64,000 nt of DNA from Treponema sp. CETP13 (lineage in GTDB: Bacteria > Spirochaetota > Spirochaetia > Treponematales > Treponemataceae), in NCBI GenBank assembly GCA_001885315.1, contig MLPZ01000005.1, positions 1-64,000 on the forward strand, written 5' to 3'. The position numbers were made by a program, and so were the translations under genes. The notes beneath the pieces were generated by a model. It did not search any database. It saw only the letters and a program-made list of their open reading frames with translations, and was not told where the DNA came from. Positions within the stretch are counted from its first letter, which is position 1. Every line of letters begins with the position of its first letter. Below are positions 3,151-16,071 of this stretch, in pieces.

Positions 3151-3188
3151 AGGCCTAAAAATCATTTATATCTTTTTTTGAAAATTAC

Positions 3189-3267
3189 GTGATTTGATTA
3201 TTGTTTGAATTGATACGGGGTTCCCTACTTTCAAATTTGCAACAACTTGAAAGTAGGATTATAAAAT
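3189..3267. repeat. Dispersed direct repeat with hairpin, copy 1
   Basis: About 78 bp recur at 5078-5155 with roughly eight mismatches and one gap. The core is a hairpin, with arms CCTACTTTCAA and TTGAAAGTAGG at 3224-3234 and 3247-3257. The two copies flank the island's left end and the AbiE genes, one outside the tRNA-derived repeat and one inside. Confidence 0.65.
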
Positions 3268-3307
3268 AACTTTTACCGATTTTTACATTCTTTTTTGTAC
3301 TTTTACA

Positions 3308-3368: not shown

Positions 3369-3454
3369 AAACAGCTATAATTCATTATCCTGTAAAGAAA
3401 TAAAATAGTCGGAGAGGTGGGAATTGAACTCACGACCCCCTCGTCCCGAACGAG
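3369..3454. repeat. Left attachment-site repeat (partial tRNA-Pro copy)
   Basis: It matches 15960-16045 with three substitutions, all in the part outside the tRNA. Homology stops at CGAG inside the anticodon stem; beyond 3454 the sequence is unrelated to the tRNA 5' half. This copy cannot encode a functional tRNA. Confidence 0.8.
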
Positions 3455-3585: not shown

Positions 3586-4221
3586 TTAGTTAAAAAGTTG
3601 TGCTAATTTTTCATATTGTTCATTAAATTTTGAAACATTAGTTTTTTTAAGTTTTTCGAGATTTTGTATTTACCAACAAACGGCAGGTAATCGTTCAAGA
3701 TTTGGGATTCTTATCGATGAAAAATCAGGTTTAAGTGAAACAAAATCAAGCAGAAATTCTCTGAAAGGTTGTATTTCTGTTTGAATAAATTGTACAAGTG
3801 TATTAAAAACAACATTATAGTCTGCATAGGAAAAGTCTGTTTCTGCTTTTTGGCAAATTCTACACAACTGAGGCTCATACACATATCCTCTAATTATGTA
3901 ATTGGGTTCTATTTTTATTGTAGCAACATGATTTGAAACAATAACTTTCTTTTTATTACTATTGCCTTGGAGAATTGCAGAATAACCTGCCTTTTTTAAA
4001 GCAACAACAATACTATCAAGAGCTTTGTTTATTTTTAAATAAGCTATATCATGGTCATCAAAATTTACATATGTTAAATCTATGTCCACAGAAAGACGAG
4101 GCATATTGCGATAAAACAAATTTATTGCAGTTCCACCCTTCAATGCAAAACAAGTTTCTTTTGCTATAAACGGAAGAACTTCAACAAGAAGAGCTACTTT
4201 ATCTATGTATGATTTTTTCAT
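3586..4221 (-). pseudogene. AbiEii-type nucleotidyltransferase toxin, decayed
   Basis: The N-terminal half has the AbiEii nucleotidyltransferase core (ALKGGTAINLFYR, then the metal-binding DIDLTY). Two defects are visible. A TAA at 3670-3672 follows PAVCW, where the family usually has a Lys, and the same frame then continues with a family-like tail (IQNLEKLKKTNVSKF) to a second TAA at 3586-3588. The middle is also short: NVV runs almost directly into the C-terminal region, so about 90-100 residues usual in the family are missing. Total length without the stop would be about 211 residues against roughly 300 in typical members. The toxin is probably inactive. Its ATG overlaps the end of abiEi by 4 bp. 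Confidence 0.75.
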
Positions 4222-4979
4222 ATTGCCTCTACATTTTCTATAACAATACGATATTTTTTATTGTATTGTCCGCCTTTTGTTATTTCTCTATCTCCAGATC
4301 CTAAATCTATTTTTTGTATATCAATATGCTTAATCCAAGCAAGCCCTGCTTGTTCAGCCATATACAAAAAAAGACGTTTTACTTTTATAGAGCAACAATG
4401 TTCTAAAAGACTTTGAACTAGAGCCGGTTTAGCTGTATTCAATAATTCTAGCACTTGATAGGTTTCTTGTAATGTATGAACAGAAGGTGTTAAATACACC
4501 ATTTCTAAAATAGCTCGTTCAATTGTTGGAATTCTTATTGTAAAATTACCGGTATCATAATTTGTAAATCCCATATCTTTGGGCAAAAAAGATGTCACAA
4601 AAAGCTCGTATTGTGAATGGTATGTAGAACAGAACCAAGCAGGAAGTTTTTCATTTCGATAACAAAACAACTGAGCTTTTCGTTCTAAAGTAAGATTATG
4701 CGTTTTTCCATATTTTTCGTCTAAGGCAGTATAACCAGCCTGATGAACACTTAATCCAAGTTCTTTTTGAAGTGTATATAGTGCACCTTCAAGACTAACC
4801 TCTTCACCAAGTACTGTATACGCACCGTTAGATATACGTGTAAGCCAGCCTGATCGAACTGCTGAACGTTGTAATTCACGAGAAAACCCTTTTTTCAACA
4901 TGCTGTCAGCTGTCAAAATTGTGTTATGTGAATGATTTTTAAGTATATCCTTTATATTTGTACTATTTTTAGTATTCAT
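4218..4979 (-). CDS. AbiEi-family antitoxin / transcriptional repressor
   Basis: This 253-residue protein has an N-terminal winged-helix region (GWLTRISNGAYTVLG, about residues 44-58) and the C-terminal AbiEi domain, which ends in a typical IDLGSGDREITKGGQYNKKY segment. AbiEi proteins repress their own operon and counter the AbiEii nucleotidyltransferase in a type IV-like system linked to phage abortive infection. The 4-bp overlap with the downstream toxin frame is the normal arrangement. This frame is intact although its partner is broken. A small inverted repeat (TTAAAAGA...TCTTTTAA, 5042-5063) upstream could be an operator. Confidence 0.8.
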   Translation of the reverse strand: MNTKNSTNIKDILKNHSHNTILTADSMLKKGFSRELQRSAVRSGWLTRISNGAYTVLGEEVSLEGALYTLQKELGLSVHQAGYTALDEKYGKTHNLTLERKAQLFCYRNEKLPAWFCSTYHSQYELFVTSFLPKDMGFTNYDTGNFTIRIPTIERAILEMVYLTPSVHTLQETYQVLELLNTAKPALVQSLLEHCCSIKVKRLFLYMAEQAGLAWIKHIDIQKIDLGSGDREITKGGQYNKKYRIVIENVEAI

Positions 4980-5077
4980 AATACAAATATTAATACATAA
5001 TTAAAGATAAAGCAAGCCTTATTCTTTATTCTAGCGCCAACTTAAAAGAAAGCCATCTTTTAAAACGCATTAATTAA

Positions 5078-5155
5078 GTAATTTGATTATTGTTTGAATT
5101 AACACGGACTTCCAACTTTCAAATTTGCAACAAATTGAAAGTAGGATTATAAAAG
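5078..5155. repeat. Dispersed direct repeat, copy 2
   Basis: Partner of 3189-3267. The hairpin arm CTTTCAA...TTGAAAG is kept at 5117-5140. It separates the AbiE pair from the regulator gene at 5185. Confidence 0.65.
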
Positions 5156-5184
5156 AATCGGAAAAGAATGTATCACAAATAATG

Positions 5185-6683: not shown

Positions 6684-8843
6684 GTGAAGTATTATCAACA
6701 GCTTGATGAAACCGATTGTGGGGCAGCTTGCCTTGCTATGATTGCATCATATTACAAAAAACACAAATCTATCACTTCTATTCGTGAGATTGCAGGTACC
6801 GATAAAAATGGTACTAATCTAGTCGGGATGGTTCAAGCTGCTCAAACAATGGGGTTTTCTACTCATGCCCTCAAGGGCAATAAAGATGCTTTAACAAAGG
6901 AGCTCCCCTTTCCGTTTATTGCTCATGTTGCTATAAAACATAATGATCTTATTTTGCAGCACTTTGTCGTTATAAATAAAATAGCAAATAATAAAATTGA
7001 AATCTGGGATCCAGATGAAACAAAAAAAATATATAAGCTTAATATTGATAAATTTGAAAAAATATGGACTGGTTATGTTCTTTTTCTTTCTCCAAATCAT
7101 AATTTTAAACAAACTAACGAGAAAGGCAATTTACTTATAAAATTTTTACCATTAATGAAGCCGTATAAAAATTTATTAATCATGGCCTGTTTTGCTTCTC
7201 TTATTTTAGTTATTTTTGGCATCCTTTCAGCTTTATACACCCGGTATATTATTGATGAAGTTTTGTTTTCGCAGGCAAAATTTACTCTCGCGGCTATTTC
7301 TGTAGGTATGTTAGTTATTATTGTTTTACAAGCAGTAATGGGAGCTGTTCGTAAAATCTTACTTACTCATTTTGCCTATAAAATAGACTTAAATCTTGTC
7401 TTTTCTTATTTTACTCATGTATTTCATTTACCATTACATTTTTTCGATTCAAGAAAAACAGGAGAAATTCTCTCTCGTATGCAAGATATTGGCAAGATAC
7501 AACAAACTCTTTCTCAGGGCGTAGTCTCCGTTATTATGGATACTGTTATGGTGCTTATTGTAGGTCCTGTTTTGTATGCAACCAATAAAACCTTATTTGG
7601 CATTATTATTGTTACCGTTCCGTTTTCTTCTGTAATATTATATGTCTATTCAAAATTATATAAAAAACAGTATAGAAAACTCATGGAAAATGCAGCTGAT
7701 GTTCAATCTTGTTTAGTCGAATCGGTAAATGGTGCTGCTACGGTTAAAGCTATGACGTGTGAGAGTACAACTATTGCAAATTATGAAAAACAGCAAATGG
7801 AAATGACCCGGACTGGTTGGAAAGCAGCACATTTGCAAATCTACCAGTCAATGTTTACAGAACTTATTAAGCAAATAAGTACAATAGTTATATTTTGGGT
7901 AGGAAGTTTGCTTATTATAAAAGGGAATTTAAGCATAGGAACCCTTATCAGTTTTACTGCTCTTGCAGGGTATTTTACAAACCCATTGCAGAGGCTTGTA
8001 AATTTACAAGCAGAATTACAAGAAGCTTTTGTTGCAGCGGATCGTTTAGGAGAAATCCTAGAATTAGAAGTTGAACAAGATGATAAAAGCAGATTGTTAC
8101 AGCCTGACCATTTTTATGGAAAAATAGAATGTACTGATGTGGCTTTTAGATATGGTACCCGAAGACCGGTATATGAACAGTTAAGCTTTTCTATTAATGC
8201 AGGAGAGCGAGTAGCTTTTGTTGGGCCTTCTGGATGTGGTAAAACAACTCTTGTTAAATTATTGCTAAAATTTTATGAATCAGAAAAAGGGAAAATATCC
8301 TTTGACAATCATGATATACGTGATTTAGATGCATATTACCTTCGCTCTCATGTAGGATACGTACCACAAGAAATATATTTGTTTTCTGGCACCATTGCAG
8401 ATAATATTGCACTTCATAAAGCTGATGCTACTCTCGAGGAAATTGCAACAGCAGCGATAAAAGCAGGGGCTGATGAATTTATAGAAAAACTTCCAGAACG
8501 ATATAATACTGTGATTGGAGAGCGAGGGGCAGATCTTTCTGGTGGAGAGCGCCAACGGTTAGCTTTAGCTCGAGCTATAGTAGGTGATCCAGATATATTA
8601 ATTTTGGATGAAGCAACAAGTAATTTAGATTCTGTTTCAGAGCAACTTATAAAAACTACAATAGAAAATATGAAAGAGAAACAGCTTACAACTATTATTA
8701 TTGCACATAGACTTTCTACGGTTATCGATTGTGACAAAATATTTGTTATGGATAAAGGCTCTATTGTACAAGTTGGAACACATGAAGACTTAAAAAAGGA
8801 AGAAGGTTTGTATCGCCAATTGTGGCAAGGGGTATTAGTATAA
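6684..8843 (+). CDS. C39-peptidase ABC exporter for double-glycine peptides
   Basis: A 719-residue PCAT-type protein. Residues 1-130 are a peptidase C39 domain with Cys12 in DETDCGAACL, His93 in QHFVVI and Asp109 in WDPD, the catalytic triad. Five or six membrane helices follow, then a nucleotide-binding domain with Walker A GPSGCGKTT (about 513), signature LSGGERQRLALARA (about 618) and Walker B ILILDEAT. The family cuts leader peptides after a Gly-Gly motif and exports the core. Two such precursors lie downstream, and HlyD/TolC partners at 13406 and 14574 would carry the product across the outer membrane. The start is GTG; the Shine-Dalgarno match is weak. Confidence 0.92.
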   Translation: MKYYQQLDETDCGAACLAMIASYYKKHKSITSIREIAGTDKNGTNLVGMVQAAQTMGFSTHALKGNKDALTKELPFPFIAHVAIKHNDLILQHFVVINKIANNKIEIWDPDETKKIYKLNIDKFEKIWTGYVLFLSPNHNFKQTNEKGNLLIKFLPLMKPYKNLLIMACFASLILVIFGILSALYTRYIIDEVLFSQAKFTLAAISVGMLVIIVLQAVMGAVRKILLTHFAYKIDLNLVFSYFTHVFHLPLHFFDSRKTGEILSRMQDIGKIQQTLSQGVVSVIMDTVMVLIVGPVLYATNKTLFGIIIVTVPFSSVILYVYSKLYKKQYRKLMENAADVQSCLVESVNGAATVKAMTCESTTIANYEKQQMEMTRTGWKAAHLQIYQSMFTELIKQISTIVIFWVGSLLIIKGNLSIGTLISFTALAGYFTNPLQRLVNLQAELQEAFVAADRLGEILELEVEQDDKSRLLQPDHFYGKIECTDVAFRYGTRRPVYEQLSFSINAGERVAFVGPSGCGKTTLVKLLLKFYESEKGKISFDNHDIRDLDAYYLRSHVGYVPQEIYLFSGTIADNIALHKADATLEEIATAAIKAGADEFIEKLPERYNTVIGERGADLSGGERQRLALARAIVGDPDILILDEATSNLDSVSEQLIKTTIENMKEKQLTTIIIAHRLSTVIDCDKIFVMDKGSIVQVGTHEDLKKEEGLYRQLWQGVLV

Positions 8844-8845
8844 AA

Positions 8846-9050
8846 TTTTTACAAGTTATTATCCGCGGTAGTAGCTTGTTAAAAATATGTCTTCGTCGAA
8901 GGCAAAATGTCAGCATAGTACGCAAATACTACACTGACAGCGGTAATTTGCAGTTACGCAAAGCAACGTACTGTAAATATACTGCATAAATTAAATTCTT
9001 CCAATAAAAAAAGTATTGGAAGAGACTAGGAGTTTGTTATGACAAACGAA
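8846..9050 (+). repeat. Duplicated 205-bp peptide leader, copy A
   Basis: It matches 10791-10995 without gaps and with about six substitutions, and covers the upstream region plus the first four codons (MTNE) of the precursor gene. It begins 3 nt after the exporter stop. Inside are a hairpin at 8908-8939 (TGTCAG and TAGTA pairing with TACTA and CTGACA), another at about 8998-9022 just before the ribosome-binding site, and a possible promoter (TTACGC 8954-8959, TATACT 8978-8983). It may be a regulatory leader RNA, a recombination cassette edge, or both. Confidence 0.8.
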
Positions 9051-9197
9051 ATTGCAAAGAAAGAAGAAAATGGGTTTTCTACACTTAAAAGTGAAGAATT
9101 ATTTGACATTGAAGGTGGCGGAGATATTACTATTGGACCTACTACTGGCCCTGATGGAAATCCTGGTATTAGCATTAAAGGAAAGATTAATAAATAA
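9039..9197 (+). CDS. Double-glycine leader peptide, precursor 1
   Basis: This 52-codon gene has AGGAG ending 7 nt before the ATG. The leader reads LKSEELFDIEGG, the hydrophobic/acidic pattern recognised by C39 peptidases, with cleavage expected after Gly27 (a third Gly follows). The predicted core of about 25 residues is hydrophilic and rich in Gly and Pro (ITIGPTTGPDGNPGISIKG), with no Cys and no aromatic residue. That is unlike pore-forming class II bacteriocins; a signalling peptide or an unusual modified peptide is possible. No lanthionine or other recognised modification enzyme is nearby. The first four codons match precursor 2. Confidence 0.8.
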   Translation: MTNEIAKKEENGFSTLKSEELFDIEGGGDITIGPTTGPDGNPGISIKGKINK

Positions 9198-9202
9198 TTA
9201 AG

Positions 9203-9239
9203 TAAAAGCGATGTATAAAGATTTTATGCATCGCTTTTA
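9203..9239 (+). terminator. Hairpin terminator after precursor 1
   Basis: TAAAAGCGATG (9203-9213) pairs with CATCGCTTTTA (9229-9239), and the inner bases extend the stem to about 17 bp. Four T residues end the stem and AT-rich sequence follows. It would separate abundant precursor transcript from the downstream genes. Confidence 0.65.
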
Positions 9240-9265
9240 TCTAAATAATATGAAGGAATACAATT

Positions 9266-10237
9266 ATGAAGCAAAAAAATTTATACATAGTTAATTTTAT
9301 TGTGATTTTAACTATTTTTATTATGTCATGTAAATCGGCTCCAGAACATACTACTAGTATTGATAAAAACTTTGAACCAACCGGCCTGATTGTAATTCCC
9401 TTTACGTATAATAGTGATGAATATATGCCTGTTTTTACTATGTCGAATAGTGACGGGGTAAAATTGCGTTTGTGTTTTGATAGTGGAAACTCGTGTTGTT
9501 TTATTAGTAAAAAGGGTATTGAAAAAGTTGGTAGTAATGAAAAAGAAATGGAAAGTGGTATATTTAAGCAGTTATTAGAAAAATATCCTGAGCAAAAAGA
9601 ATCTTTTTTAAGAAAAAAAGCAAAAAAAATGATAAAGGAAGGTAAATGTGGATGGACTTTTGACAGTTTAATTAAAGACAATTATAAAGTAGAAAATCGT
9701 TATTTTCAATATAGATCTAATTTTATAAAAGAAACTAATATAGATGGTTTAATTGGTTTGTCTTTTTTTGGAGATTGTAAAAATGTTGTAATAGATTATG
9801 TCCATCAAGTAATAGAAATTGATGCAGAAACTCTTGAAGGAAATAAATGGTCAATGACTAAAGTTCCCGATTTAGATTTATATAAAACACAAATTAGTGT
9901 TAATGGTATTGAACAATATGCTCTGATAGATACCGGTGCTAAACAAATGGCAATTCGAAAAAATTATACTGAGCCTGATACGATGTTGGACAAAGACAAA
10001 GTTGATTTTATTTACAATGGTAGTGCAGGTCTATCTTTTCCTTGGGTTTCTAACACGACTTTTGAATTCGTAAATATTCAAAAAAGATTATCTGCTTATA
10101 AATCAACAAACTTTTTAATGCATGCATCGGGTTTTGGGAAACGATGTGCGTATGTTTATAATTTGCTTGGTTATCCATTTTTTTGTGATACACGTATTCA
10201 ATTTGACTTTAAGAACAGCCAGTTTATTATTGAATAA
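9266..10237 (+). CDS. Two-lobed aspartyl protease-like lipoprotein
   Basis: A 323-residue protein with an N-terminal signal and lipobox IMSC (Cys22). Two retropepsin-like halves are visible. The first has FDSG (Asp72) followed by IDGLIGLSFF (159-168); the second has IDTG (Asp222) followed by LGYPFF (301-306). Each half thus has a catalytic D-S/T-G and the later hydrophobic-Gly turn, the plan of a single-chain pepsin-like enzyme. It should sit on the outer membrane or periplasmic face. Position between two precursor genes suggests peptide maturation, degradation or self-protection, all inferred. Confidence 0.7.
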   Translation: MKQKNLYIVNFIVILTIFIMSCKSAPEHTTSIDKNFEPTGLIVIPFTYNSDEYMPVFTMSNSDGVKLRLCFDSGNSCCFISKKGIEKVGSNEKEMESGIFKQLLEKYPEQKESFLRKKAKKMIKEGKCGWTFDSLIKDNYKVENRYFQYRSNFIKETNIDGLIGLSFFGDCKNVVIDYVHQVIEIDAETLEGNKWSMTKVPDLDLYKTQISVNGIEQYALIDTGAKQMAIRKNYTEPDTMLDKDKVDFIYNGSAGLSFPWVSNTTFEFVNIQKRLSAYKSTNFLMHASGFGKRCAYVYNLLGYPFFCDTRIQFDFKNSQFIIE

Positions 10238-10249
10238 GGAGAGTTTGTT

Positions 10250-10783
10250 ATGAGTTATTCAATAGAACCTGCATTTACCGTAACAAAAGAGTTGTCAAGA
10301 CAATTAATAAAAGTAAGCACGCAAGCTAAAAACCAATGGTTTTTTCCCGAAGGTGGATTTTCAAGTAATAGCCTTGATCATATAGGTGACATGTGGGTAC
10401 ATGAGAATTTTGTGGTTATAAGTGATACTGAAATTATAGCTTATTTTGAAGGCCAATGGGCAAGACCTTTGAATATTCTTCTTAATTTTAGATTAATACT
10501 TTTAGATGAAAAAAAAAGCTTTTTTGCCTGTAAAGCATTTTTTCAATATTTAGAGTATTTATTTGTTTCGCGAGGATGTGATGTTTTTAATTGGAGTGTT
10601 GCGACTGAGAATAGGCATGCTTATTTGTTATATGAAAAATTTGTGAAAAAAAATTGTGGTCACATAGTTGGAAGAAGAACAAGGAGTTTACAAAGTTATT
10701 GCGGGAAGATAAGCGATTCTGTTTTATATGAGATATCAAAAGAAGAATATTTTGATTGGAAAGATAGCAATCAGAGAAAATAA
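10250..10783 (+). CDS. GNAT-like N-acetyltransferase of peptide locus
   Basis: A 177-residue protein with a GNAT-like layout; the best-matching part is NWSVATENRHAYLLYEKFVKK (about 118-138), resembling the conserved motif B and C-terminal helix. The acetyl-CoA loop is not canonical, so the family call is moderate. It lies 12 bp after the protease gene with a good ribosome-binding site (AAGGAGA) and ends 8 bp before leader copy B. Possible substrates are a precursor peptide or an immunity target; nothing in the sequence decides this. Confidence 0.6.
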   Translation: MSYSIEPAFTVTKELSRQLIKVSTQAKNQWFFPEGGFSSNSLDHIGDMWVHENFVVISDTEIIAYFEGQWARPLNILLNFRLILLDEKKSFFACKAFFQYLEYLFVSRGCDVFNWSVATENRHAYLLYEKFVKKNCGHIVGRRTRSLQSYCGKISDSVLYEISKEEYFDWKDSNQRK

Positions 10784-10790
10784 TATAGTT

Positions 10791-10995
10791 TTTTTACTAG
10801 TTATTATCCGCGGTAGTAGCTTGTTAAAAATATGTCTTCGTCGAAGGCAAAATGTCAGCATAGTACGCAAATACTACACTGACAGCGGTAATTTGCAGTT
10901 ACGCAAAACAACGTATTGTAAATATACTGCATAAATTAACTTATTCCAATAAAAAAAGTATTAGAAGAGACTAGGAGTTTGTTATGACAAACGAA
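10791..10995 (+). repeat. Duplicated 205-bp peptide leader, copy B
   Basis: Gapless partner of 8846-9050. The main hairpin is conserved at 10853-10884. The hairpin next to the ribosome-binding site is weakened by two substitutions. The matching segment ends after codon 4 of precursor 2. Confidence 0.8.
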
Positions 10996-11214
10996 TTATG
11001 TATTAATGGATTTTCAGCAGTGTCTGAGGATGAAATGATGGTTATTGATGGTGGTGGTTGGATTTCTTTTGCATGTGGTGTATTAGGTGGAGTAGTTGGT
11101 ATTGTTTGTACTGCAGAAACTGCAAATCCTGTTACTATTATGGGAGCGACATCTGTTGGTGTTCTTGCAGGCATTACGATTGGTGATAATCTCGAAAATG
11201 CTCTTGAAAATTAA
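10984..11214 (+). CDS. Double-glycine leader peptide, precursor 2
   Basis: A 76-residue precursor. The leader ends in VSEDEMMVIDGG (Gly23-Gly24), a standard C39 cleavage site. The core of about 52 residues is hydrophobic and Gly/Ala/Val-rich (WISFACGVLGGVVGIVC, later GVLAGITIGDN), has two Cys ten residues apart that could form a disulfide, and has repeated small-residue spacing. These are features of class II, membrane-active bacteriocins. It shares the 205-bp leader and first codons with precursor 1 but nothing in the core. Ribosome-binding site AGGAG. Confidence 0.82.
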   Translation: MTNELCINGFSAVSEDEMMVIDGGGWISFACGVLGGVVGIVCTAETANPVTIMGATSVGVLAGITIGDNLENALEN

Positions 11215-11240: not shown

Positions 11241-11278
11241 ACTATGGTAATAGTTTTTTTTATTGCTATTACCATAGT
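11241..11278 (+). terminator. Hairpin after precursor 2
   Basis: ACTATGGTAATAG (11241-11253) pairs perfectly with CTATTACCATAGT (11266-11278) over 13 bp. The loop is T-rich but no T-run follows on the plus strand, so it could be a terminator, an mRNA-stabilising hairpin or an attenuator. Confidence 0.5.
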
Positions 11279-12884: not shown

Positions 12885-12906
12885 AATACAATTTAAAACA
12901 TAAAAA

Positions 12907-12915
12907 GGGGGGGGG
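12907..12915 (+). repeat. G9 homopolymer tract before start codon
   Basis: Nine consecutive G residues end 1 nt before the ATG at 12917, in the place of the ribosome-binding site. In this AT-rich window such a run stands out. Slipped-strand length changes would alter ribosome-binding-site spacing; poly-G tracts upstream of Treponema pallidum tpr genes are known to vary in this way. Confidence 0.6.
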
Positions 12916-13405: not shown

Positions 13406-14566
13406 ATGAAAGATGAAAAAGAAACGCTAGTGCATTATGAAGATCTAAAGCTACTCCCAAAAACACGTGATTTTTTTGATACGCAGACTTCAAAAGCTAT
13501 CCCTGTGTTTATAATTGTGTTGTTTGCTATTCTTGCAGGGTTTCTTATATGGGCAAGTTTTGCAAAGATGGATGATACGATAAAAGCAAATGCAATTTTA
13601 CGGCCGGTAGATACTATTTCTTCTTTACGATCTTTGGTAAGTGGTGAAATAGTAGAAAAGTACTATACGCAAAATGAACAGGTAAAAAAAGGACATCTTT
13701 TATTGAAAATAGATAATGTTTCTGAATCAATAAACCTTGAAAATTGTAAAATACAATTAAAAAAAATAATTGAAGAAATAGAAGAAGAAAACATATTAAT
13801 TGATTCTATAAATTCCTGTCAAAACAAAGCAGAAAAAAACAGTAATGCATGGGTTAAGGCTGAAACATATCTTGCTGAATATAATAGGCAGCAAAATGTT
13901 TTAGAACAGCAAAAACAGGCATTTCAACAAGAAGACAATATGCCTGAATCACTTCGAATACAACAAAAAATTGATGACTGTAAAGCCACTTTAGAGCAAT
14001 CAACCTTTTCTTTTTCTTCTTGGAAAAATGACCATATGATGCAAGCAACAAATTTGCTCAATAGTTTAAATAAGCAAAAACAATCTTTAGAATTACAAAT
14101 TGTTTCAAGTCAACGAACTATAAAAAATGCCAATTTGTATGCACCAATTGATGGTTATATAAATGAAATCATGCAATTAAACAGCGGAGATTTTGTAATA
14201 GCAGGAAATGAATTACTTCGTATTATTCCAGATGATGATAAAAACTTAAAAGTTGAAATTATTGTTGATGCGGCGCACATTGCTCGTATAAAAACGGGAC
14301 AAGAAGCAAAACTGCGGTTTCCAGGCTTGCCACCATCAACATTTGGGCAACTTTCGTCGTATATTACAATTATTCCTGCTGATATGATTATTGTTTCAAA
14401 TACACCTGTTTTTAATGTAGAAGCTGATGTTCCAAATCCTTATCTTGAATCGTTTAATGGTGAAAAAATACATCTACGATCAGGTATTAGTGCTGAAGCG
14501 CGTATAATTATTTCTCACGATACTGTGTTGCACATGATTCTGCGCAAGTTAGATTTCTTAAATTGA
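13406..14566 (+). CDS. HlyD-family periplasmic adaptor
   Basis: A 386-residue membrane fusion protein. It has a cytoplasmic N-terminus, one membrane helix (about 31-50, FIIVLFAILAGFLIWASF), a biotinyl-lipoyl-like half (LVSGEIVEKYYTQNEQVKKG), a coiled-coil hairpin (about 105-230), the second lipoyl half (LYAPIDGYINEIMQLNSGD) and a beta-barrel region (GQEAKLRFPGLP). It links the C39 exporter to the outer-membrane channel. A typical ribosome-binding site (AAGGA) precedes it and the TolC-like gene follows after 7 bp. Confidence 0.9.
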   Translation: MKDEKETLVHYEDLKLLPKTRDFFDTQTSKAIPVFIIVLFAILAGFLIWASFAKMDDTIKANAILRPVDTISSLRSLVSGEIVEKYYTQNEQVKKGHLLLKIDNVSESINLENCKIQLKKIIEEIEEENILIDSINSCQNKAEKNSNAWVKAETYLAEYNRQQNVLEQQKQAFQQEDNMPESLRIQQKIDDCKATLEQSTFSFSSWKNDHMMQATNLLNSLNKQKQSLELQIVSSQRTIKNANLYAPIDGYINEIMQLNSGDFVIAGNELLRIIPDDDKNLKVEIIVDAAHIARIKTGQEAKLRFPGLPPSTFGQLSSYITIIPADMIIVSNTPVFNVEADVPNPYLESFNGEKIHLRSGISAEARIIISHDTVLHMILRKLDFLN

Positions 14567-14573
14567 GTGGTAT

Positions 14574-15956
14574 ATGAAAAAGAAAGTATTAATAATAATC
14601 GTCTCTATTTTGGCTTTGGAATGGGGTGCTGTTGCACAAGAAACTGAATTAGAGCGCTTGTGGCAAACAACTATGCAAAATAATGGAGATGTATTATCTG
14701 CCCAACATACGTACGAAAGTGCCTGTTTATCTCGTAGAACTTTGGATGCTACCTATGCTCCATCGGTAAGTACCAGTACTTCGTCTTCTTTTCCTGATGA
14801 ATATGAATGGGATGAATGCCCTGCAAGTGTATCTTCTTCTGTAAGCCTTAGCCAGCCGTTGCCGGGTGGTACTACTCTCGGACTAACTGGAACGTATGCG
14901 CTATCAACTGCAGATGTAAACTCTGTGCAATATATTAGTCAAGTTCCTACTATTTCTATTACTTTATCGCAAAGTTTAGCTCCTTTTTGGTCACAAGGGA
15001 CGCTTAAAGATCCGACCAAACTCTCACTCGAACAACAAAAACAGTATTACTATTACCAGCTACTCTATACCAAACAACAAACTTTGCAAACTGTGACGCA
15101 ATATTATGTATTGTGTTTAATTTATAAAAAGAAAATAGATGTATATAATGCGTCTATAGCTTATAAGCAAAAACAAATAGAAGCTTTGACAGAACTAAAA
15201 AAAACAGGTGGGACAAATTTAGCAAAAATAGCAGAATTAAAAACTTCACAATGGTCTGATGAGCAAAGTATGAGTGATGTTCAAATTACGTATCAAGAAT
15301 ATTGTAAATATCTAAAAGATGCTTGTGGAATTGATGCTTTTCAAATCAAAAAGGCTCACTTACCTTCTAATGAAACTAAAATTGCTCTTGCCTATATAAA
15401 TAACGTTTCAGATCCATGTGGCAAAGCTCTTTTATTAAAAATAGATATGCTTACTACTACATCTCAATTAACAAAACAAAACTCGGCTCCGTTACTTGGC
15501 TTGTCATTTACGCCAAGTTGGGGACTAGAAACGTTAGAAACAACGGATTGGAAATCGGCATGGGATAAAGACAAAACCTATTCATGGACAGCAAGTGTTT
15601 CGCTAAATTTTACCCCATTTATTTCATCTTTGTATTCTCATACAAAAGATACAGAAAATATTCAATTACAAACAGCACAAGATGCCTATAGTTATTACGT
15701 TAAACAAAAAAGGTATGTGAAAGACAAATATCAGACACTTTTAGAGTCTTTTAGACAACAGCAAACACAAGCGGAGCAACTTTGTTCCGAATTAGCCCAA
15801 CTTGCAACAGATTCTAAACAGCAACTTGATTTAGGAGCTCTCTCTCAGCTTGATTATGATTCGATTCAACTACAGGTACAAAGTTGTAACGCAACACTGG
15901 ATTATATAAATCTCTATATGTGGCTGTATAACTGGCAGATAGAAATGTTAGAATAA
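14574..15956 (+). CDS. TolC-like outer-membrane channel protein
   Basis: A 460-residue protein with a signal peptide (about 1-21, ending AVAQ) and the long alternating helices and short beta strands of the outer-membrane efflux family. Recognisable elements are LERLWQTTMQNNGDVLSAQH near the mature N-terminus and SVSLSQPLPGGTTLG. With the adaptor and the C39 exporter it would form a type I secretion route across both membranes. It is the last gene of the island and ends 4 bp before the right attachment repeat. Confidence 0.85.
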   Translation: MKKKVLIIIVSILALEWGAVAQETELERLWQTTMQNNGDVLSAQHTYESACLSRRTLDATYAPSVSTSTSSSFPDEYEWDECPASVSSSVSLSQPLPGGTTLGLTGTYALSTADVNSVQYISQVPTISITLSQSLAPFWSQGTLKDPTKLSLEQQKQYYYYQLLYTKQQTLQTVTQYYVLCLIYKKKIDVYNASIAYKQKQIEALTELKKTGGTNLAKIAELKTSQWSDEQSMSDVQITYQEYCKYLKDACGIDAFQIKKAHLPSNETKIALAYINNVSDPCGKALLLKIDMLTTTSQLTKQNSAPLLGLSFTPSWGLETLETTDWKSAWDKDKTYSWTASVSLNFTPFISSLYSHTKDTENIQLQTAQDAYSYYVKQKRYVKDKYQTLLESFRQQQTQAEQLCSELAQLATDSKQQLDLGALSQLDYDSIQLQVQSCNATLDYINLYMWLYNWQIEMLE

Positions 15957-15959
15957 ATG

Positions 15960-16045
15960 AAACAGCTATAATTCACTATCTAGTAAAGAAATAAAATAGT
16001 CGGAGAGGTGGGAATTGAACTCACGACCCCCTCGTCCCGAACGAG
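15960..16045. repeat. Right attachment-site repeat (in intact tRNA-Pro)
   Basis: It matches 3369-3454. This copy joins the complete tRNA, so insertion preserved tRNA function. Confidence 0.8.
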
Positions 16046-16071
16046 GTGCGCTACCCCTGCGCTACTCTCCG
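16000..16071 (-). tRNA. tRNA-Pro (anticodon CGG)
   Basis: Read on the minus strand, a 7-bp acceptor stem CGGAGAG/CTCTCCG, a D arm, anticodon stem CCTCG/CGAGG with loop TTCGGGA (anticodon CGG at 16037-16039) and a T arm with GTTCAATTC are all present, followed by discriminator A. CCA is not encoded. It is the island's integration site. Confidence 0.95.

Follow-up and report, generated by a model that had tools for sequence, protein, structure and literature searches.

A repeated leader before two unlike peptide genes

Why should two neighboring genes for small double-glycine peptide precursors with unrelated cores be preceded by nearly the same 205 bp of DNA? The question is raised by a locus in the 64,000-nucleotide stretch of Treponema sp. 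CETP13 DNA analyzed here (hereinafter the window), in which co-directional genes are arrayed in the order: exporter, precursor 1, lipoprotein, 177-aa protein, precursor 2, further genes, HlyD-like adaptor and outer-membrane protein. The relevant features are as follows:

6684-8843, +: C39-peptidase ABC exporter of the double-glycine-cleaving kind (TIGR01193, 636.9 bits; cut-off 523.9)
8846-9050, +: leader copy 1, comprising a hairpin array, Shine-Dalgarno and codons 1-4 of precursor 1 (repeat, fold and covariance match)
9039-9197, +: double-glycine precursor 1, 52 aa, MTNEIAKKEENGFSTLKSEELFDIEGG/G..., with a weak ComC/Bacteriocin_IIc match
9202-9240, +: hairpin behind precursor 1, 18 bp
9266-10237, +: lipoprotein with a retropepsin-like motif
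10250-10783, +: GNAT-fold acetyltransferase-like protein, 177 aa
10791-10995, +: leader copy 2 (covariance-model match at 10832-10985, 42.2 bits)
10984-11214, +: double-glycine precursor 2, 76 aa, core unrelated to precursor 1
11242-11277, +: hairpin behind precursor 2, 13 bp
13406-14566, +: HlyD-like adaptor (profile match)
14574-15956, +: outer-membrane efflux protein (profile match)

The exporter carries a PF03412 peptidase domain (E 1.5e-39) and both precursors have Gly-Gly leaders, ending respectively in ...IEGG/G and ...IDGG/G, which curated family models match below cut-off only. No Pfam family matches the 177-aa protein, which is predicted to adopt the GNAT acetyltransferase fold (pLDDT 81), the best PDB matches being SpeG and other GNATs, and the match list also includes a lasso-peptide acetyltransferase. 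The combination of a C39 exporter and Gly-Gly precursors marks the locus, as judged from its sequence, as a putative bacteriocin-type double-glycine peptide export operon.

In a pairwise alignment, the two leader copies match over 205 nt without a gap and differ by exactly six substitutions (97% identity), at 8853, 8963, 8971, 8995, 8998 and 9018 in the coordinates of copy 1, in agreement with the approximately six counted in a preliminary description of this DNA. That description also had each copy beginning within 8 nt of the preceding stop codon, and the measured distances are indeed 2-8 nt, from the stops of the exporter (8843) and the 177-aa gene (10783). The repeat spans the Shine-Dalgarno sequence and stops after the fourth codon of the precursor (MTNE). 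The further claim that the peptides have nothing in common is true of the cores, but the leader peptides are recognizably alike (NGFS...GGG). The promoter assigned to each copy was not recovered: neither leader contains a sigma-70-like site on the + strand, nor are such sites in excess across the scanned region. A small ORF, 55 and 68 aa long, runs through the leader in a frame common to both copies; it was set aside because the differences between species keep the pairing intact. As for the further copies that the preliminary description proposed to look for, neither DNA search nor covariance model found a third one in the 2.54-Mb genome. The sequence likewise lacks BLAST-level relatives in 274 genomes of the family, and DNA searches found nothing similar in phages or plasmids. 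Small DNA matches in three loci (L004-L006) sit in unrelated genes and were rejected as chance.

Genomic setting of the locus

The bacteriocin region lies between direct repeats of 86 bp (97% identity; 3369-3454 and 15960-16045) that cover the 3' part of tRNA-Pro(CGG), the intact gene of which occupies 15999-16071, and it has the appearance of a 12.6-kb island inserted at this tRNA. The island's contig yielded no tyrosine integrase; at G000:C7:22358-24756 (L161, L162, L164) three adjacent tyrosine recombinases form a recombinase-in-trio-like arrangement. Near the left end of the island, positions 3670-4979 encode an AbiEi antitoxin and an AbiEii toxin, of which the toxin aligns to no more than roughly the first half of its model. 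These genes are flanked, at 3183-3269 and 5072-5157, by two imperfect direct repeats that contain an inverted repeat (CCTACTTTCAA...TTGAAAGTAGG). Upstream of the island, two adjacent ORFs (66-1210) resemble an IS3-type transposase pair. A run of G at 12905-12914, directly before the start of a 158-aa gene, is a possible phase-variable tract, and at locus L076 a 10-G run stands behind TTGACA in a repeated 5' block.

Fold of the window leader

RNA folding yields minimum free energies of -67.9 kcal/mol for copy 1 (z -8.0) and -51.4 kcal/mol for copy 2 (z -4.3), and when the whole window is scanned in tiles (205 nt, 100-nt steps, both strands), no segment is more stable for its GC content than copy 1. 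Strong structure had been noted at the outset; however, it does not take the form of a single long hairpin, but of five hairpins in series (h1-h5) followed by a small one (h6) around the start codon. In copy 1 these are:

8846-8884, +: h1, long hairpin directly past the exporter stop, from the fold; not seen in relatives
8888-8904, +: h2, CUUC-GUC-GAAG hairpin, the sole sequence-conserved part (family consensus CCUUCGUUGAAGG)
8908-8939, +: h3, stem kept through compensatory change only
8940-8985, +: h4, long bulged stem, kept through compensatory change
8996-9024, +: h5, just 5' of the Shine-Dalgarno sequence; weaker in copy 2
9029-9047, +: Shine-Dalgarno GGAG and h6, the start-codon hairpin GUUUGU-UAUG-ACAAAC

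The differences between the copies do not spare this structure: stems contain four of the six substitutions, three of which disrupt a pair, which is consistent with recent copying of the window leaders. Given that the genome has just two copies and that these are 97% identical, this pattern would fit an alternative in which one 205-bp stretch was recently duplicated or gene-converted and has no function as a leader beyond ribosome binding. Comparison with other species makes this account very unlikely.

A family of structured leaders in Treponemataceae

Loci surrounding exporter homologs were retrieved from relatives, and RNA folding was applied to the 5' region of each double-glycine precursor there. 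Several of these regions share a common plan: a CCUUC-GUU-GAAGG hairpin (h2), an h3 of 10-13 bp, a long bulged h4, h5 and the Shine-Dalgarno sequence. A covariance model (R1) built from seven leaders of other Treponemataceae, with no sequence from the window, was run over 854 kb and matches each window copy along its entire length, with 43.6 bits for copy 1 (8887-9040; E 1.5e-5) and E 2.9e-5 for copy 2. Across the family R1 detects elements in 13 other genomes, which with the window makes 21 elements from 14 genomes and four genera. In the alignment of these (A5), 92.0% of the cells at paired positions are paired, a percentage inflated by the fitting of the rows to the structure model, and both sides have changed at 29 of the 30 pairs; the 14 rows outside the model training alone give 91.8%, and once more 29 of the 30 pairs carry double changes. 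Covariation scores 0.764, compared with 0.231 for shuffles (none of 500 reaching the observed value) and 0.07-0.11 when the partners are slid. Copy 1 differs from the majority of the training set on both sides of 16 of its 28 formed pairs, and model-free folding returns a serial hairpin array with h2 for all 13 elements so treated.

The preliminary description had recommended a covariation analysis and considered that just two copies, with no compensatory changes in stems across species, would point to a simple recent duplication. At the level of sequence there are indeed no further copies, yet compensatory changes across species are abundant. Copying can account for the identity between the window's two copies but not for this conservation.

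Rfam holds no relevant match for the leaders of the window or its relatives, even with relaxed E-values. When the exact h2 pattern was sought over 84,980 species, all true matches were in Treponema, as named in the records of the matching contigs; the seven matches in other taxa, the best of which reaches only 28 bits, accord with chance expectation. In a sample of 296 genomes from the phylum the element occurs in Treponemataceae only, and searches of genomes from other families that encode related exporters did not find it. A second model (R2) did not find it in genomes G048 and G041, whose precursors have another leader with a promoter-like sequence. The window leader is a member of a previously uncatalogued multi-hairpin family that precedes genes for secreted, bacteriocin-like peptides in gut and rumen Treponema.

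Two divergent instances were also observed. At L106 (5735-5903, -) a full hairpin element precedes a double-glycine frame (KNELSIKGFSEITEKEQMNCNGGG) with an ATA start, which suggests a dead gene or an unusual start. At L142 (1303-1425, -) of Treponema sp. RGIG8719, a decayed copy lacks h3-h5, and h2 leads straight into the Shine-Dalgarno sequence and a double-glycine frame.

Position of the elements and their level of action

Seventeen of the 21 elements directly precede double-glycine precursors (one of them with Gly-Ala), two precede aspartyl-protease lipoproteins homologous to that of the window (9266-10237), other homologs of which are found at related loci, and the remaining two stand before a radical SAM enzyme and an unclear ORF, respectively. 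The elements lie in sense orientation between the upstream stop codon and the Shine-Dalgarno sequence, with every regular-expression match to h2 in the fetched loci 101-210 nt before the script-called precursor start. Where an upstream gene is close by, they begin anywhere from 56 nt inside it to 48 nt past its stop. This upstream gene varies, being an exporter, a GNAT-like protein (homologs of the 177-aa protein directly precede the element in relatives), an HlyD or a radical SAM enzyme; hence, the element goes with the downstream gene. Stable folds flank the precursors on both sides: the z-score of the 5' fold averages -5.1 there versus -1.4 at other genes (p=9e-9), and the 75 nt 3' of precursors have a median minimum free energy of -18.2 versus -9.6 (p=4e-4).

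Covariation together with consistent position and strand strongly supports these elements as cis-acting structured leaders, most likely of mRNAs. The earlier suggestion of a regulatory RNA is upheld to the extent that a conserved, covarying cis element precedes the precursor genes; its regulatory effect is presumed from sequence.

The strand preference of the pairing is, however, slight: G-U cells outnumber A-C cells by 39 to 23, and the sense fold is more stable than the antisense fold in nine of 13 elements. This leaves some room for an action of the structure at the level of DNA, whereby the element would be a recombination or integration site, akin to the attC sites of integrons or otherwise folded as a single strand, into which peptide cassettes are inserted. 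As with attC, the elements are folded, start at the upstream stop codon or close to it and are followed by diverse cassettes, and the genome does encode a true integron integrase (C11:61933-62811; TIGR02249, 389 bits, cut-off 265). Yet a bounding RYYYAAC...GTTRRRY pair of core sites is seen in none of the 21 elements, there is no repeat array in the 23 kb around the integrase locus (L165/L166), and the fold consists of four to five serial hairpins rather than a single imperfect one, and on these grounds identity with attC is rejected. Orientation and spacing relative to the Shine-Dalgarno sequence and start codon are also fixed, and contig C4 yielded no tyrosine recombinase. We consider a DNA site of any kind improbable and favor action as RNA on account of the position and orientation of the element.

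The start-codon hairpin

In h6 of the window the start codon occupies the loop, while the 3' arm is formed by codons 2-3. Related leaders (MKNEL, MINGL and MSEF types) have other paired sequences in the same place, namely UUCGU/ACGAA, UUCAUU/AAUGAA, AAUCAUUA/UAAUGGUU and GCUCA/UGAGC. Measured against 151 control genes, nine starts of the MTNE/MKNE/MINGL type, grouped post hoc, reach the top 0-7% for such a hairpin, whereas in the other subfamily (MLAEK and MLALT types) it is mostly absent or weak by the same comparison. In the subfamily of the window, the use of codons 2-3 by h6 explains why the repeat reaches into the coding sequence.

A hairpin that could open or close at the start codon, an h5 close to the Shine-Dalgarno sequence and a conserved h2 loop would all suit a metabolite- or peptide-sensing riboswitch or an attenuator of the precursor genes. 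Sequence conservation is nevertheless confined to h2, with no conserved junction or pocket, no mutually exclusive helix was noticed, and we regard this interpretation as unlikely.

A constant module before variable cores

The combination of a constant 5' block and a variable core recurs in other genomes, in sequences entirely different from those of the window but with 5' region and leader peptide similarly alike. The paralogous precursors of G107 are 98% identical from -217 to +53, with the Gly-Gly codons ending at +54, and diverge thereafter; those of G048 are 91% identical from -131 to +68, with Gly-Gly ending at +69, and then diverge likewise. In G137 the paralogs are 98% identical from -132, and in G237 they are 91% identical over a stretch that opens shortly ahead of h2 and closes at the Gly-Gly codon; G214, G099 and G312 provide weaker cases. 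The recurrence of this layout in other species and with other sequences means that the window does not hold a one-off duplication, which further weakens the account in terms of plain copying of a functionless stretch. At the same time, since other species preserve structure rather than sequence and the window copies are nonetheless 97% identical even in their linkers, the likeness points to recent copying and not to selection acting on the RNA alone. Ordinary duplication or gene conversion suffices as the process; no recombinase or site-specific mechanism behind the copying was found. The proposal that the leader is a recombination handle is thus borne out with respect to the constant module and variable core, but not with respect to a dedicated recombination machinery.

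A broader, tentative possibility, to which we give less than even weight, is that this new RNA family, restricted to Treponemataceae of gut and rumen, makes up the 5' half of a mobile module for expression and secretion, in which one RNA and one exporter would serve an open-ended set of swappable cores. The module would consist of the hairpin array, the start-codon hairpin and the leader peptide, and would be duplicated whole, ending sharply on its 3' side at the Gly-Gly cleavage codon.

Proposed mechanism and significance

We propose that each copy is probably a cis-acting structured RNA leader within a bacteriocin-type export operon, which would set the precursor off from the preceding gene and control its expression. 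Briefly, we envisage the following. Within a long mRNA, the hairpin array would most likely stabilize the short segment that encodes the precursor, by processing or protection, and thereby allow more peptide than transporter to be made; we infer stabilization from the lack of an apparent promoter and from the stable hairpin found behind most precursors as well, though these 3' hairpins could be partial terminators. The h2 loop is a likely recognition site for a protein or small RNA that tunes translation, and h6 is a likely translation gate. The element and the leader peptide would form a constant expression-and-export module behind which duplication or gene conversion places new cores, the two copies of the window probably stemming from one recent copying event.

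These observations add a structured RNA family without Rfam counterpart, with strong covariation and tied to one biological role. The family also furnishes a search handle for spirochaete double-glycine peptides that curated protein models miss or score below cut-off, and provides a natural example of a secreted core that varies behind an unchanging RNA element and leader peptide.

Comparison with known systems

The closest counterpart in the genus is the tepA1-tepB1 system of Treponema denticola, with TDE_0416, TDE_0422 and TDE_0424 as its double-glycine proteins (PMC4947327). Like the window, it combines a C39-ABC exporter, an HlyD-type partner and small double-glycine precursors with near-identical paralogs; unlike here, the available account of that system describes no leader RNA (PMC4947327). 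A survey of RNAs from the human microbiome lists Treponema candidates before ribosomal-protein genes, with bacteriocin genes absent from its main text (PMC8040213).

The elements share some features with integron attC sites, as discussed above, but lack their core sites, differ in fold and have a fixed relation to the start codon. Intercistronic hairpins that stabilize or process polycistronic mRNAs are well known, as in puf and REP/BIME. Like those, the present elements lie between cistrons as stable hairpins that bracket one segment; in contrast to them, they have a conserved multi-hairpin architecture and a conserved loop sequence and are tied to one gene class, with their function predicted from sequence. 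Finally, in the prochlorosins and cyanobactins, as here, a constant leader peptide is joined to a diverged core with the boundary at the cleavage site. What sets the present family apart is that the constant part extends into a 5' untranslated hairpin array and that, in the window, the array and four codons are all that is constant.
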